Source: Streptomyces sp. SCL15-4
Lineage (GTDB): Bacteria > Actinomycetota > Actinomycetes > Streptomycetales > Streptomycetaceae
DNA length: 64,000 bases
Assembly: GCF_033366695.1 (NCBI RefSeq)
Contig: NZ_JAOBTQ010000001.1
Coordinates: forward strand, 6,076,001-6,140,000
Direction of reading: 5' to 3'
Shown here: positions 54,508 to 61,179 of the stretch, in pieces
How positions within the stretch are numbered: position 1 is the stretch's first letter
Layout of the letters: every line of letters starts with the position of its first letter
Translations under genes and position numbers: made by a program
Notes under the pieces: generated by a model
The model's input: the letters and a program-made list of their open reading frames with translations, nothing else
Told to the model about the DNA's origin: nothing
Database searches by the model: none

Positions 54508-55464
54508 TTGAGCCAGAGTCGACACGTCCCGGTGATGCTCCAGCGGTGCCTGGACCTGCTGGCGCCCGCCCTGGAGCGCCCCGGAGCGGTGGTCGTCGAC
54601 TGCACCCTGGGCCTCGGCGGCCACAGCGAGGCGCTGCTGACCCGGTTCCCCGGCGCGCGGCTGATCGGCCTGGACCGGGACAGGGAGGCGCTGCGGCTGT
54701 CCGGCGAGCGGCTGGCGCCCTTCGGCGACCGCGCCACCCTGGTGCACGCCGTGTACGACGAGCTGCCCGACGTCCTCGACCGGCTCGGCACGGCGCGCGT
54801 GCAGGGCGTGCTGTTCGACCTCGGGGTGTCCTCCATGCAGCTCGACGAGGCCGGCCGCGGCTTCGCCTACGCGCAGGACGCGCCGCTGGACATGCGCATG
54901 GACCAGACGACCGGCATCAGCGCCGCCGAGGTCCTCAACACCTACCCGCCCGGCGAACTCGTCCGCATCCTGCGCGCGTACGGCGAGGAGAAGCAGGCCA
55001 AGCGGATCGTCGCGGCGGTCGTCCGGGAGCGCGAGAAGGAGCCGTTCAGCACCAGCGCGCGGCTCGTGGAACTGATCCGGGACGCCCTGCCGCAGGCCGC
55101 CAAGCGCACCGGTGGCAACCCGGCCAAGCGCACCTTCCAGGCGCTGCGCATCGAGGTCAACGGCGAGCTGTCCGTGCTGGAGCGGGCGGTCCCGGCGGCC
55201 GTGAAGGCGCTGGACGTCGGCGGACGCATCGCCGTGCTGTCGTACCACTCGCTTGAAGACCGGCTGGTGAAGCACGTGTTCGCGGCCGGGGCGGCCTCCA
55301 CCGCGCCGCCCGGGCTGCCGGTCGTGCCCGAGCGGTACCAGCCGCGGCTCAAGCTGCTCACCCGTGGTGCCGAACTTCCCACCGAGGAGGAGATCGCCGA
55401 GAACCGCCGGGCCGCGCCGGCCAGGCTGCGCGGTGCCGAACGCATCAGGGAGGACGTGGAGTGA
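54508..55464 (+). CDS. rsmH: 16S rRNA (cytosine1402-N4)-methyltransferase
   Basis: A 318-residue methyltransferase (MraW) that methylates C1402 of 16S r[16 protein letters not shown], the [14 protein letters not shown] motif I and [19 protein letters not shown] are diagnostic. The start is TTG at 54508, five bases after GAGAGG; no earlier alternative exists and the next ATG is inside the conserved region. It is the first gene of the division and cell-wall cluster. Its stop overlaps a tiny 23-codon frame that links it to ftsL. Confidence 0.95.
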
Positions 55465-55532
55465 GCGAGACGGGTCGAAGGGTCTCCTTCGCGCACCGGG
55501 GGAGCGGCATCCCCGTACCGGGGGAGCGGTGA
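55461..55532 (+). CDS. Candidate 23-codon linking ORF between rsmH and ftsL
   Basis: GTG at 55461 overlaps the rsmH stop as GTGA, and the frame ends at TGA 55530-55532, which overlaps the ftsL GTG in the same way. It encodes 23 residues. Its most likely role is to carry terminating ribosomes from rsmH to ftsL rather than to make a product. Confidence 0.35.
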
Positions 55533-56095
55533 GCAGGGCACCCGCGCTGAAGGGGAGGGCCGCCCGGCTGGCCCGGCTCTTCCCGGCGGGCCGCGCCCAG
55601 GCGGCCCGCACCCCGTTCGTGCTCCTCGTCGTCGTGCTCCTCGGCGGCGGCCTCATCGGGCTGCTGGTGCTGAACTCCGCGCTCAGCGAAGGCTCGTTCG
55701 AACTCGCCGACCTGCAGAAGCGGACGAAGACCCTCACCGACGAGGAGCAGGCCCTCCAGCGGGACATCGACGCCTACTCGGCCCCCGACGCCCTCCAGCG
55801 GCGCGCCCGCGAACTCGGCATGGTCCCCGGCGGCGACCCCGCCTTCCTCGGCCCCGACGGCACCGTCAAGGGCGTCCCCGGCCCGGCACCCGGGACCGCG
55901 GCCCTCACCGGCCCGGCCGCCGCCCCCGGCACCACCGCCCTCTCCGGCCCGGCCGCCGCCCCGCAGACCCAGCTCCCACCCGGCGCCCCCGCCACCGTCC
56001 CGGCCCCCGCGCCGCCCCCCGCCGACCCGGCCCCCCGCGGCCCCGCCCGCCGTCCCCCCGTCCGTGTCCATCTTGACCCCCGGCAGGTGACGGAA
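55529..56095 (+). CDS. ftsL: Cell division protein FtsL (no own stop codon; runs in frame into ftsI)
   Basis: A bitopic division protein that acts with DivIC/FtsB at the septum. After a basic start there is one membrane span (TPFVLLVVVLLGGGLIGLLVLN), then an extracellular coiled coil (FELADLQKRTKTLTDEEQALQRDIDAY) and a Pro/Ala-rich tail. The GTG at 55529 follows GGGGGAG. The frame has no stop: it continues through the Pro-rich tail into the ftsI start at 56096. As a fusion the penicillin-binding domain would end up on the wrong side of the membrane, so separate translation or a missing stop is more likely. A TGA at 56074-56076 in another frame would end FtsL if one frameshift had occurred. 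I set the end at the ftsI start. Confidence 0.75.
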
Positions 56096-58060
56096 GTGTC
56101 CGACAGGCAACCGCCGCGCCGTCGTGTGCCCGCGCCCGCCAAGCCGCCGCGCCCCAGGGGACCCGTCCGGCGGCAGCCCGGTCCCGGGGCGCGTCCGGTG
56201 CGCCGGCCCGGCGGGGCCCGGCCCATGCCGCCCGCCCCGCTCCGGCTCGGCAGCCCCCGGCCCCGGCTCCGCCTGGTCGGCCTCGCCCTGACGCTGGTGC
56301 TGCTCGTCTTCGTCGTACGGCTGCTCCAGGTGCAGGCCGTCGACGCGAGCGCGTACGCGGCACGCGCCGAGGAGAACCGGTACGTGGTGCACACCCTGGC
56401 CGCCGAGCGCGGCGAGATCACCGACCGCAGCGGCGTCGCCCTCGCCGTGAGCGAGGACGCGTATGACATCACGGCCGACCCGACCATGTTCGGCGCCAAG
56501 CAGCTGAAGATCACCGACGGGCCGGAGCGGGCCGCCGCGCTGCTCGCCCCGATCCTCGGCCAGGACCAGGCCGCGCTCGCCGGGAAACTGCGGCCCGCGA
56601 ACAAGAACTCCCGCTACACCCGCCTGGCCACCCGGCAGACCCCGCAGGTCTGGAAGCAGATCAGGGACCTGAAGACCGCGCTCGCCAACAAGTCCGGCAC
56701 CGACCACACCACCGTCAACGTGCTGGCCGGCGTCTTCGCGGACCCCAGCAGCCAGCGCGTGTACCCCAACGGCGACCTGGCCGCCGGGATACTGGGCTGG
56801 GTCAACGCCGACGGCAAGGGCGGCGGCGGCATCGAGCAGCAGCTCGACAAGCAGCTCACCGGCAAGGACGGCAAGGTCCGCTATGCCCAGGCCGGCGGAC
56901 GCGAGGTGCCCACGGTCGGGTCGACGGAGACCCCCGCCGTGCCCGGCGCCGACGTCGAGCTGACCATCGACCGGGACATCCAGTGGGCCGCGCAGAACGC
57001 CATCAGCGAGCAGGTGCGCGCCTCCAGGGCCGACCGCGGCTACGTCATCGTCCAGGACACCCGCACCGGCCAGATCCTGGCCATGGCCAACTCGCCCGGC
57101 TTCGACCCCAACGACCTGTCGAAGGCCGACGGCGACGCCATGGGCAACGCGGCCCTCCAGGACGCCTACGAACCCGGCTCCACCGCCAAGGTGATGTCGA
57201 TGGCGGCCGTGCTGGAGCGGAACGCCGCGACCCCCCTCACCCACGTCGTCGTGCCCAACCGGCTGCACCGCGGCGACCGGCTCTTCCAGGACGACATCGA
57301 CCACGCCACCTGGTACCTCACGCTCAACGGCGTGCTCGCCAAGTCCAGCAACATCGGCACCATCCTGGCCACCGGCGAACTCGCCAAGAGCCAGCCCGAG
57401 GCCAACAAGATCCTCTATTCCTATCTGCGCAAGTTCGGCATCGGCGGCTACACCGGCCTCGGCTTCCCCGGCGAGACCCCCGGCATCCTCGCAGCGCCGC
57501 AGAAGTGGTCCACCTCGCAGCAGTACACGATCCCTTTCGGCCAGGGCTTCTCCATCAACGCCATGCAGGCCGCCTCCGTGTACTCGACCATCGCCAACGG
57601 CGGCGTCCGCGTGGAGCCGACCCTGGTGCGCGGTACCAAGGGCGCCGACGGGCGTTTCACCCCGGCGCCGAAGCCCAAGAAGACGCGGGTGGTCAGCGAG
57701 AAGACCGCCAAGAGCCTCGCCCGGATGCTGGAGTCGGTGGTCGACGACGAGCAGGGCACCGGCATCAAGGCCCGCATCCCCGGGTACCGGGTGGCGGGCA
57801 AGACCGGTACGGCCAACCGTGTGGATCCGGCCACCGGCCGCTACCGCGGCTACACCTCGTCCTTCGCCGGTTTCGCGCCCGCCGACAACCCGCGGATCAC
57901 CGTCTACTGCGCCATCCAGAACGCCACCTCCGGCAACTACTTCGGCGGCCAGATCTGCGGTCCCATCTACAAGCAGGTGATGGAGTTCGCCCTCAAGACC
58001 CTCCAGGTCCCGCCGACCGGGGCGAAGCCCGCCAGCCTGCCCGTCGAGTACAAGCCCTGA
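56096..58060 (+). CDS. ftsI: Septal peptidoglycan transpeptidase FtsI (PBP3)
   Basis: A 654-residue class B penicillin-binding protein for septal cross-linking. After a basic cytoplasmic tail (PPRRRVPAPAKPPRP) comes one membrane span (RLVGLALTLVLLVFVVRLLQ), a dimerisation domain and the transpeptidase with SxxK at Ser362 (GSTAKV), SSN in LAKSSNIG, and KTG at Lys569 (AGKTGTANR). I chose GTG 56096 because AGGTGA precedes it by five bases; GTG 56087 is three codons upstream. The upstream FtsL frame enters it without a stop. Confidence 0.93.
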   Translation: MSDRQPPRRRVPAPAKPPRPRGPVRRQPGPGARPVRRPGGARPMPPAPLRLGSPRPRLRLVGLALTLVLLVFVVRLLQVQAVDASAYAARAEENRYVVHTLAAERGEITDRSGVALAVSEDAYDITADPTMFGAKQLKITDGPERAAALLAPILGQDQAALAGKLRPANKNSRYTRLATRQTPQVWKQIRDLKTALANKSGTDHTTVNVLAGVFADPSSQRVYPNGDLAAGILGWVNADGKGGGGIEQQLDKQLTGKDGKVRYAQAGGREVPTVGSTETPAVPGADVELTIDRDIQWAAQNAISEQVRASRADRGYVIVQDTRTGQILAMANSPGFDPNDLSKADGDAMGNAALQDAYEPGSTAKVMSMAAVLERNAATPLTHVVVPNRLHRGDRLFQDDIDHATWYLTLNGVLAKSSNIGTILATGELAKSQPEANKILYSYLRKFGIGGYTGLGFPGETPGILAAPQKWSTSQQYTIPFGQGFSINAMQAASVYSTIANGGVRVEPTLVRGTKGADGRFTPAPKPKKTRVVSEKTAKSLARMLESVVDDEQGTGIKARIPGYRVAGKTGTANRVDPATGRYRGYTSSFAGFAPADNPRITVYCAIQNATSGNYFGGQICGPIYKQVMEFALKTLQVPPTGAKPASLPVEYKP

Positions 58061-58103: not shown

Positions 58104-59759
58104 GTGACAACGATCACTCCCGACGCCGGGAACCACGAGGCCGACAGGCCCTCGCTTCGCTCCGGAGCCGGTACGCCCGGTACGCTCACCGCCGTGCCAC
58201 ACGCTGATCAGTCCCAAACCACCCAGAAGGGCGCTTCCGTGACATATCCGGGACCGCCGCGACCGGTTCAGGTCTCCGCCACACCCCTCGCGGAACTGGC
58301 CGATCAGCTGGGTACCGCCGCTCCGGACAGCGCCGCCGAGGTCACGGGGATCACCCACGACTCGCGCGCCGTCCGCCCCGGCGACCTGTACGCCGCCCTG
58401 CCGGGCGCCCGGCTGCACGGCGCCGACTTCGCCACCCAGGCCGCCGGCCTCGGCGCGGTCGCCGTGCTCACCGACGCCGACGGCGCCGGACGCGCCGCCG
58501 CCACCGGCCTGCCCGTCCTCGTCGTGGACGACCCGCGCGGCCGGATGGGCGAGCTGGCGGCCCGGATCTACGGCCGGCCCGGCCGCGATCTGCTCCAGAT
58601 CGGCATCACCGGCACCTCCGGCAAGACCACCACCGCCTACCTGGTGGAGGGCGGCCTGCGGACCGCCCGCGCCACCGGTCTGGTGGGCACCGTCGAGACG
58701 CGCATCGGCGACGAGCGGATCAAGTCCGAGCGCACCACCCCCGAGGCCACCGACCTCCAGGCCCTGTTCGCCGTCATGCGCGAACGCGGCGTCGAGGCGG
58801 TCGCCATGGAGGTCTCCAGCCACGCCCTGGTCCTCGGCCGGGTCGACGGCTGCGTCTTCGACATCGCCGTCTTCACCAACCTCAGCCCGGAACACATGGA
58901 GTTCCACTCCGACATGGAGGACTACTTCCGGGCCAAGGCGCAGCTGTTCACACCGGAGCGCAGCAGGCTCGGCGTGGTCAACGCCGACGACGAGTACGGC
59001 CGCCGGCTCGCCGAGGAGGCGACCGTGCCGGTCGTCACCTACTCCGCCGAGGGCCACCCGGACGCCGACTGGCGCGCCCAGGGCGTCCAGATCGGCCCCA
59101 TGGACTCGACGTTCACCGTCCTCGGCCCCGGCGGCGAGCGGATCCACGCCAGGTCGCCGATCGCCGGTCCCTTCAACGTGGCGAACACCCTCGCCGCCGT
59201 CGTCGCCCTCGCCGCCGCCGGCCTCGACCCGCAGACCGCCGCCGACGGCATCGCCGCCGTAGCCGGCGTACCGGGCCGCCTGGAGCGCGTCGACGCCGGG
59301 CAGCCCTACCTCGCCGTCGTCGACTACGCCCACAAGACGGACGCGGTCGAGTCGGTGCTCAAGGCGCTGCGCAAGGTCACCAAGGGCCGGCTGCACGTCG
59401 TCCTCGGCTGCGGCGGCGACCGCGACCGGACCAAGCGCGCCCCGATGGGCGCCGCCGCGGCCCGGCTCGCCGACACGGCCGTACTGACCTCCGACAACCC
59501 CCGTTCCGAGGACCCCCTCGCGATCCTCGCGACCATGCTCCAGGGCGCCGCCTCGGTGCCCGCGCACGAGCGCGGCGAGGTGCTCCTCTTCGAGGACCGG
59601 GCCGCCGCCGTCGCCGCCGCCGTGGGCCGCGCCCAGGCCGGCGACACGGTGCTGGTCGCGGGCAAGGGTCACGAGCAGGGCCAGGACATCGCCGGCGTGA
59701 TCCGTCCCTTCGACGACCGCCAGGTGCTTCGCGAAGCTATCCAGAAGACCCAGGGATGA
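58104..59759 (+). CDS. murE: UDP-MurNAc-dipeptide ligase MurE
   Basis: Adds the third amino acid, diaminopimelate, to the peptidoglycan precursor. The ATP loop GITGTSGKTTTAYLV, SERTTPEATDL, and the diaminopimelate-specific DNPRSEDP loop are all present. With GTG 58104 the protein has 551 residues and a 45-residue low-complexity N-terminus absent from other MurE proteins; GTG 58239, after GAAGGG, gives a normal length and may be the true start, and a TACGCT nine bases before GTG 58194 is a further possibility. Streptomyces uses LL-diaminopimelate. Confidence 0.92.
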   Translation: MTTITPDAGNHEADRPSLRSGAGTPGTLTAVPHADQSQTTQKGASVTYPGPPRPVQVSATPLAELADQLGTAAPDSAAEVTGITHDSRAVRPGDLYAALPGARLHGADFATQAAGLGAVAVLTDADGAGRAAATGLPVLVVDDPRGRMGELAARIYGRPGRDLLQIGITGTSGKTTTAYLVEGGLRTARATGLVGTVETRIGDERIKSERTTPEATDLQALFAVMRERGVEAVAMEVSSHALVLGRVDGCVFDIAVFTNLSPEHMEFHSDMEDYFRAKAQLFTPERSRLGVVNADDEYGRRLAEEATVPVVTYSAEGHPDADWRAQGVQIGPMDSTFTVLGPGGERIHARSPIAGPFNVANTLAAVVALAAAGLDPQTAADGIAAVAGVPGRLERVDAGQPYLAVVDYAHKTDAVESVLKALRKVTKGRLHVVLGCGGDRDRTKRAPMGAAAARLADTAVLTSDNPRSEDPLAILATMLQGAASVPAHERGEVLLFEDRAAAVAAAVGRAQAGDTVLVAGKGHEQGQDIAGVIRPFDDRQVLREAIQKTQG

Positions 59760-59763
59760 ACTT

Positions 59764-61179
59764 GTGATCGCCCTCTCCCTCGCCGAGATCGCAGCAGTCG
59801 TCGGCGGGCAGACGCACGACATACCGGATCCGTCCGCGCAGGTCACGGGACCGGTCGTCCGGGACTCCCGGGAGGTGGTGCCCGGCAGCCTGTTCGCCGC
59901 CTTCGTCGGCGAGCGGGTGGACGGCCACGACTACGCCCGGCAGGTCGTCGAGGCCGGCGCGGTCGCCGTGCTGGCCACCCGGCCGGTCGGCGTCCCCGCC
60001 GTCGTGGTGGACGACGTCCAGAGCGCCCTCGGCGCCCTCGCCCGGCACGTCGTGGGCCGGCTCGGCACCACCCTCGTGGCCCTGACCGGCTCGGCCGGCA
60101 AGACCAGCACCAAGGACCTGATCGCCCAGGTGCTCGCGCGCAAGGCGCCGACGGTGTTCACGCCCGGCTCGCTCAACAACGAGATCGGGCTGCCGCTGAC
60201 CGCCCTGTCCGCCACCGAGGAGACGCGGTTCCTCGTGCTGGAGATGGGCGCCCGGGGCATCGGGCACATCCGCTACCTCACCGGCCTCACCCCGCCGAGG
60301 ATCGGCCTGGTGCTCAACGTCGGCTCCGCGCACATCGGCGAGTTCGGCGGACGCGAGCAGATCGCCCAGGCCAAGGGCGAACTGGTGGAGGCGCTGCCGC
60401 CGGCCGGCGAGGGCGGCGCGGCGATCCTCAACGCCGACGACCCGCTGGTGCGGGCCATGGCCTCCCGTACCAAGGCGAAGGTGGTCCTTTTCGGAGAGTC
60501 GGCCGAAGCGGACGTACGCGCCGAGAACGTACGACTCACGGACAGCGGACAGCCCGCCTTCAGGCTTCACACACCCTCCGGTGCAAGCGATGTGACGATG
60601 CGCCTGTACGGTGAGCACCACGTGTCGAACGCGCTCGCCGCGGCCGCCGTCGCCCATGAGCTGGGCATGTCCGCGGAAGAGATCGCCCTCGCGCTCTCCG
60701 AGGCGGGCTCCCTCTCCCGATGGCGCATGGAGGTCACCGAGCGCCCGGACGGCGTGACCATCGTCAACGACGCCTACAACGCCAACCCCGAGTCCATGCG
60801 GGCCGCCCTCAGGGCGCTCGCGGCCATGGGCAAGGGGCGCCGCACGTGGGCGGTGCTCGGCAAGATGGCCGAGCTGGGGGACGAGGCGCTCGCCGAGCAC
60901 GACGCCGTCGGACGGCTCGCCGTCCGGCTCAACGTCAGCAAGCTCGTCGCCGTCGGGGGGATTGAGGCCTCCTGGCTGCAATTGGGCGCATATAACGAGG
61001 GTTCGTGGGGTGAGGAGTCGGTGCACGTGTCCGACGCACAGGCGGCGATCGACCTGTTGCGCAGCGAGTTGCGCCCGGGGGACGTCGTGCTCGTGAAGGC
61101 GTCCCGGTCGGTGGGGCTGGAGAGCGTCGCCCAGGCGCTCGTCGAGGCCGGTGCCGAGGGTGAGGTTGCCGCCCGATGA
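59764..61179 (+). CDS. murF: UDP-MurNAc-tripeptide D-Ala-D-Ala ligase MurF
   Basis: A 471-residue Mur ligase that adds D-Ala-D-Ala to complete the pentapeptide. LTGSAGKTSTKDLI is the ATP loop, NNEIGLPLT, EMGARGIGHI and VNDAYNANPESM are the family's substrate motifs. GTG at 59764 lies four bases after the murE stop. Its stop overlaps the mraY start (ATGA). Confidence 0.95.
   Translation: MIALSLAEIAAVVGGQTHDIPDPSAQVTGPVVRDSREVVPGSLFAAFVGERVDGHDYARQVVEAGAVAVLATRPVGVPAVVVDDVQSALGALARHVVGRLGTTLVALTGSAGKTSTKDLIAQVLARKAPTVFTPGSLNNEIGLPLTALSATEETRFLVLEMGARGIGHIRYLTGLTPPRIGLVLNVGSAHIGEFGGREQIAQAKGELVEALPPAGEGGAAILNADDPLVRAMASRTKAKVVLFGESAEADVRAENVRLTDSGQPAFRLHTPSGASDVTMRLYGEHHVSNALAAAAVAHELGMSAEEIALALSEAGSLSRWRMEVTERPDGVTIVNDAYNANPESMRAALRALAAMGKGRRTWAVLGKMAELGDEALAEHDAVGRLAVRLNVSKLVAVGGIEASWLQLGAYNEGSWGEESVHVSDAQAAIDLLRSELRPGDVVLVKASRSVGLESVAQALVEAGAEGEVAAR

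Follow-up and report, generated by a model that had tools for sequence, protein, structure and literature searches.

The apparent ftsL-ftsI fusion of Streptomyces sp. SCL15-4: two adjacent genes in one frame, with a probable net one-base shift in the GC-rich ftsL tail

The ftsL-ftsI locus

In a 64,000-nucleotide stretch of the genome of Streptomyces sp. SCL15-4 (contig NZ_JAOBTQ010000001.1, positions 6,076,001 to 6,140,000; hereafter 'the window', whose own numbering is used unless stated), the adjacent genes ftsL and ftsI appear to be joined in a single open reading frame. As set out below, we believe that this appearance arises because the reading frame slips by a net one base in the ftsL tail, most probably through an error left over from sequencing or assembly. 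The window sits on a Streptomyces-like chromosome of 8.42 Mb in 2 contigs, with Streptomyces as its nearest named relatives; the features of the locus, all on the forward strand, are as follows.

54508..55464, + strand: rsmH (mraW), the upstream neighbour, intact (PF01795, 372.1 bits)
55529..56090, + strand: ftsL, apparently interrupted in its tail, with its body in frame 0 but its end, TGA 56088-56090 included, in frame +1 (from the homologous TGA of relatives, the match of the frame +1 end, and PF04977)
55971..56083, + strand: C-rich, Pro/Ala-coding stretch placed so as to contain the frame shift (bounds set by where the protein alignments of frame 0 and frame +1 with 8 close relatives overlap; DNA alignments with loci L039, L040 and L010)
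56015-56020, 56031-56036 and 56054-56059, + strand: C6 runs in the ftsL tail
56085..56098, + strand: conserved junction, AGGTGA (presumed ribosome site, which includes the ftsL stop) plus the ftsI start GTG 56096; takes the form TGACGGAAGTG in 87 of 94 related loci with a readable ftsL end, described below
56096..58060, + strand: ftsI (septal transpeptidase), 654 codons, intact (PF03717, 63.8 bits; PF00905, 242.5 bits; lengths of FtsI matches)

The frame that begins at GTG 55529 has 843 codons and takes in FtsL, its Pro/Ala-rich tail and the whole of FtsI before reaching TGA 58058-58060, just as the initial annotation had it; measured stop to stop, it encodes 929 amino acids (aa). A Pfam search finds PF04977 (FtsL-type), PF03717 (PBP_dimer) and PF00905 (Transpeptidase) on this one chain, the first at residues 57-105 with 28.8 bits—slightly below its cut-off of 28.9, which it passes (31.8 bits) when the segment 55364-55858 is scored alone. 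Hydropathy indicates two membrane-like spans, with peaks at residues 30-48 and 250-268: the first lies at the N-terminus and is followed by the PF04977 segment, which is the layout expected of FtsL; the second is preceded by the basic N-terminus of FtsI, with a net charge of +16 over residues 190-249 in long-frame numbering. The long frame is therefore that of two real adjacent genes sharing one frame, and not a product of chance. Such a long frame is unusual: when 392 genomes of the genus were searched, 382 of them gave a match, and the next longest open frame elsewhere, among the matches listed, was 636 aa.

The FtsI part is itself ordinary, starting at GTG 56096 and running for 654 codons; the best 120 of 4802 FtsI matches span 611-691 aa, with none longer, and share 85-92% identity with it. 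The best of the listed matches is 92% identical in a database clustered at 90%, and is hence uninformative on close strains. Downstream lie open frames at 58104-59759 and 59764-61179, putatively murE and murF.

The junction in related loci

We compared the junction across 110 loci (L009-L118), 30 from a genus search (the window's own included) and 80 from a second search; by title they are nearly all Streptomyces, with one Kitasatospora. Counting as readable those with a stop in the ftsL frame inside the locus leaves 94, the other 16 being the window's own and 15 in which the contig ends first. In 90 of the 94, ftsL has a stop of its own, the homologous TGA just ahead of the ftsI start; among the 90 are L040 and L010 (DNA identity 93%) and L039 (90%). 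For 87 of the 90 this stop is the TGA of the shared junction motif, at least 10 of these loci being duplicates of another; in the remaining three (L025, L054 and L105) the TGA keeps its position, with minor differences next to it.

The window resembles the Streptomyces rsmH-ftsL-ftsI row of the dcw cluster in its gene order, FtsL body, FtsI and junction (GGCAGGTGACGGAAGTG), but differs from it in that the FtsL tail is shifted by a net one base, which brings ftsL and ftsI into one frame. The junction itself is all there, TGA 56088-56090 followed by GTG 56096; the TGA, however, is one frame off, so that the conserved ftsL stop (protein end ...GR) is absent from frame 0 as given and present in frame +1.

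No fusion is maintained among the 94 readable loci: the four without the separate stop (L034, L047, L049 and L102) are all disturbed at this same place in other ways. L049 has a run of N within ftsL; judged by eye, L102 has a missing stretch, L034 a shift in the tail plus a second shift in ftsI, and L047 (Streptomyces tricolor NRRL B-16925) an ftsL tail joined straight to another gene. By eye, that gene resembles a glycoside hydrolase, and the contig is perhaps chimeric. As a separate observation, one locus with a normal ftsL stop (L022, from genome G363) has, at about 2073-2218, a downstream FtsI match out of frame with the junction GTG, a pattern as if ftsI were shifted within its Pro/Arg-rich start.

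The frame encoding the end of FtsL

A search for FtsL-size proteins gave 3307 matches, and of the best 120 we find that 107 end in GR (103 in PGR); the 13 that do not were left out of scoring. Scored against the 107 ends, the closing 22 residues of frame +1 reach a median of 50 and a maximum of 83, compared with 24 and 33 for frame 0 and 34 and 52 for frame +2, which ends at TGA 56074. In alignments with 8 close relatives, frame 0 aligns as far as 56059 (seven of eight) or 56083 (P0014), and the frame +1 alignment begins at 55971-55983. A conserved TGA that lies one frame off, together with a frame +1 end matching that of relatives, points to a net one-base shift in the tail, and the alignments place this shift in the repetitive overlap between them, roughly 55970 to 56083. 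DNA alignments with L039, L040 and L010 show the tail to differ in length at several points.

The initial annotation had offered two readings: either FtsI starts internally, with read-through making a second product, or the GC-rich run has lost or gained a base. The junction of relatives and the frame +1 match support the second, FtsI beginning at GTG 56096, and close relatives do show both the normal ftsL stop and the aligned tail by which that annotation proposed to judge the matter; the read-through product of the first reading is not favoured. Where the annotation erred was in the position of the stop. It had suggested TGA 56074-56076 as the normal end of FtsL, a candidate ruled out by the poorer match of its frame (median 34 against 50) and by the use in relatives of the stop homologous to 56088. 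What is conserved is TGA 56088-56090, which overlaps the presumed ftsI ribosome site.

Sequencing error or genuine mutation

Our preferred reading is of two ordinary, separate genes, ftsL (approximately 186 codons) and ftsI (654 codons), that only look fused, since the sequence as given has, in the 89% GC ftsL tail, a net shift of one base that puts both in one frame. That this shift is an error rather than a mutation of the strain is the most likely interpretation, favoured because the tail is extremely GC-rich, because other assemblies break here and because other nearby genes are split. The tail (55860-56060, the region to which the 89% applies) includes the 200-mer that is richest in GC across the window. 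Among the 80 loci of the second search, 21 hit a contig end 318-838 nucleotides (nt) past the start of the match, while on the upstream side the full 3000 nt is available for every one of the 80. Two further genes, no more than about 60 kb upstream of the window, are each split between two frames in this assembly: one of the flavin amine oxidase family (Pfam) at contig positions 6015494-6016911, which lies in one frame in nine of nine relatives, as judged by equal open-frame lengths; and a cobS-like gene (named by eye) at 6031879-6032702, unsplit in eight of nine relatives and split in the other.

The wider comparisons set 400 kb of this genome (L139-L158, G000) against 400 kb of the relative G181 (L119-L138). 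A first frameshift survey picked out 4 of 246 orthologues and 3 of 236, and failed to detect ftsL itself; a second flagged 59 of 251 genes one way, many at gene starts, and was not used. In the third, the counts were 10 of 251 genes in one direction and 10 of 240 in the reverse direction, and both sets included ftsL-ftsI and the amine oxidase. Searches were confined to the amine oxidase and cobS-like genes, four more being inspected by eye, and we put no genome-wide figure on the error rate.

Several of these observations weigh against an error. The equal flag counts in the two directions mean that the survey alone reveals no excess of breaks in this genome, and the cobS-like matches of five of the nine relatives contain an unexplained TAA. 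Most G/C runs with conserved flanks (flank 10) are as long here as in G181, namely 148 of 151 runs of five and 16 of 18 runs of six. The five discordant runs cut both ways: that every one is a base shorter here than in G181 speaks for an error, but the shift in ftsL is net +1 (or -2). In other respects the assembly is good, with 2 contigs and 99.97% completeness. A generally error-ridden assembly is not supported, given the agreement in run lengths with G181. Across the same 400 kb regions, we also see that G/C runs of six or more number 62 here and 126 in G181, about half as many.

The foremost alternative is a recent, real slippage mutation in the strain, by which the ftsL stop is lost and read-through gives some FtsL-FtsI chain, with FtsI still made from GTG 56096. 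C runs are prone to slippage, and those in the tail count in favour of such an event, as does the intact ftsI start region. Streptomyces can grow without ftsL or ftsI, so that a real shift could be tolerated and the mutation would probably be survivable; mutants of ftsL and divIC are affected mainly in sporulation septation (PMC4255298). Saying this, a clean shift of this kind is seen in none of the 94 readable related loci—L034 is similar but has its second shift in ftsI—and both the trouble that other assemblies have at the same place and the splitting of other nearby genes argue against it. We therefore regard a genuine mutation as unlikely, and error as the preferred reading.

Programmed frameshifting and true fusion

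The several C5-C6 runs of the ftsL tail could in principle serve programmed frameshifting or slippage that yields both FtsL and the fusion. Relatives, however, encode FtsL in one frame with its own stop and need no shift, and the length and sequence of the tail vary among them; we consider this mechanism highly improbable.

As for a true FtsL-FtsI fusion, the open frame itself speaks for one, as do other fused entries. A search for long proteins with an FtsL part, taking the best 7995 candidates by shared words, gave seven matches (P0002-P0008), three of which (P0002, P0003 and P0005) also carry FtsI domains, the other four being partial or scrambled by eye. In P0003 (803 aa) and P0005 (755 aa, Streptomyces venezuelae) the FtsI part looks clean by eye, but all seven matches are singletons and P0002 appears, again by eye, to have further shifts in FtsI. 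In P0005 the FtsL part joins just ahead of the membrane span of FtsI, whose usual N-terminus is lacking. Together with the four disturbed loci above, these proteins have something in common with the window, whether a disturbance at or near the GC-rich ftsL end or an overlong chain that includes an FtsL-type segment; they differ in kind, showing variously an N run, a join to another gene, a missing stretch or several shifts.

The frame 0 end is, in addition, unlike the FtsL ends of relatives. The initial annotation had also argued from topology that a fused chain would leave its transpeptidase on the wrong side of the membrane, and the hydropathy and the stretch of net charge +16 between the two spans fit that argument, which predicts rather than demonstrates the orientation. 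The locus is very probably not a real ftsL-ftsI fusion, and a functional FtsL-FtsI fusion protein is the least credible of the explanations considered.

Discussion

The GC-rich tail of Streptomyces ftsL emerges as a spot where assemblies break or slip, and annotations of fused or cut ftsL and ftsI genes call for caution. It is possible, if doubtful, that the strain truly has the shift, and that its ribosomes make a long FtsL-FtsI chain beside a separately started FtsI. A real shift would add to the evidence from gene deletions that growth of these bacteria does not depend on FtsL, and the strain would then offer a natural experiment on how Streptomyces copes without a proper FtsL end.
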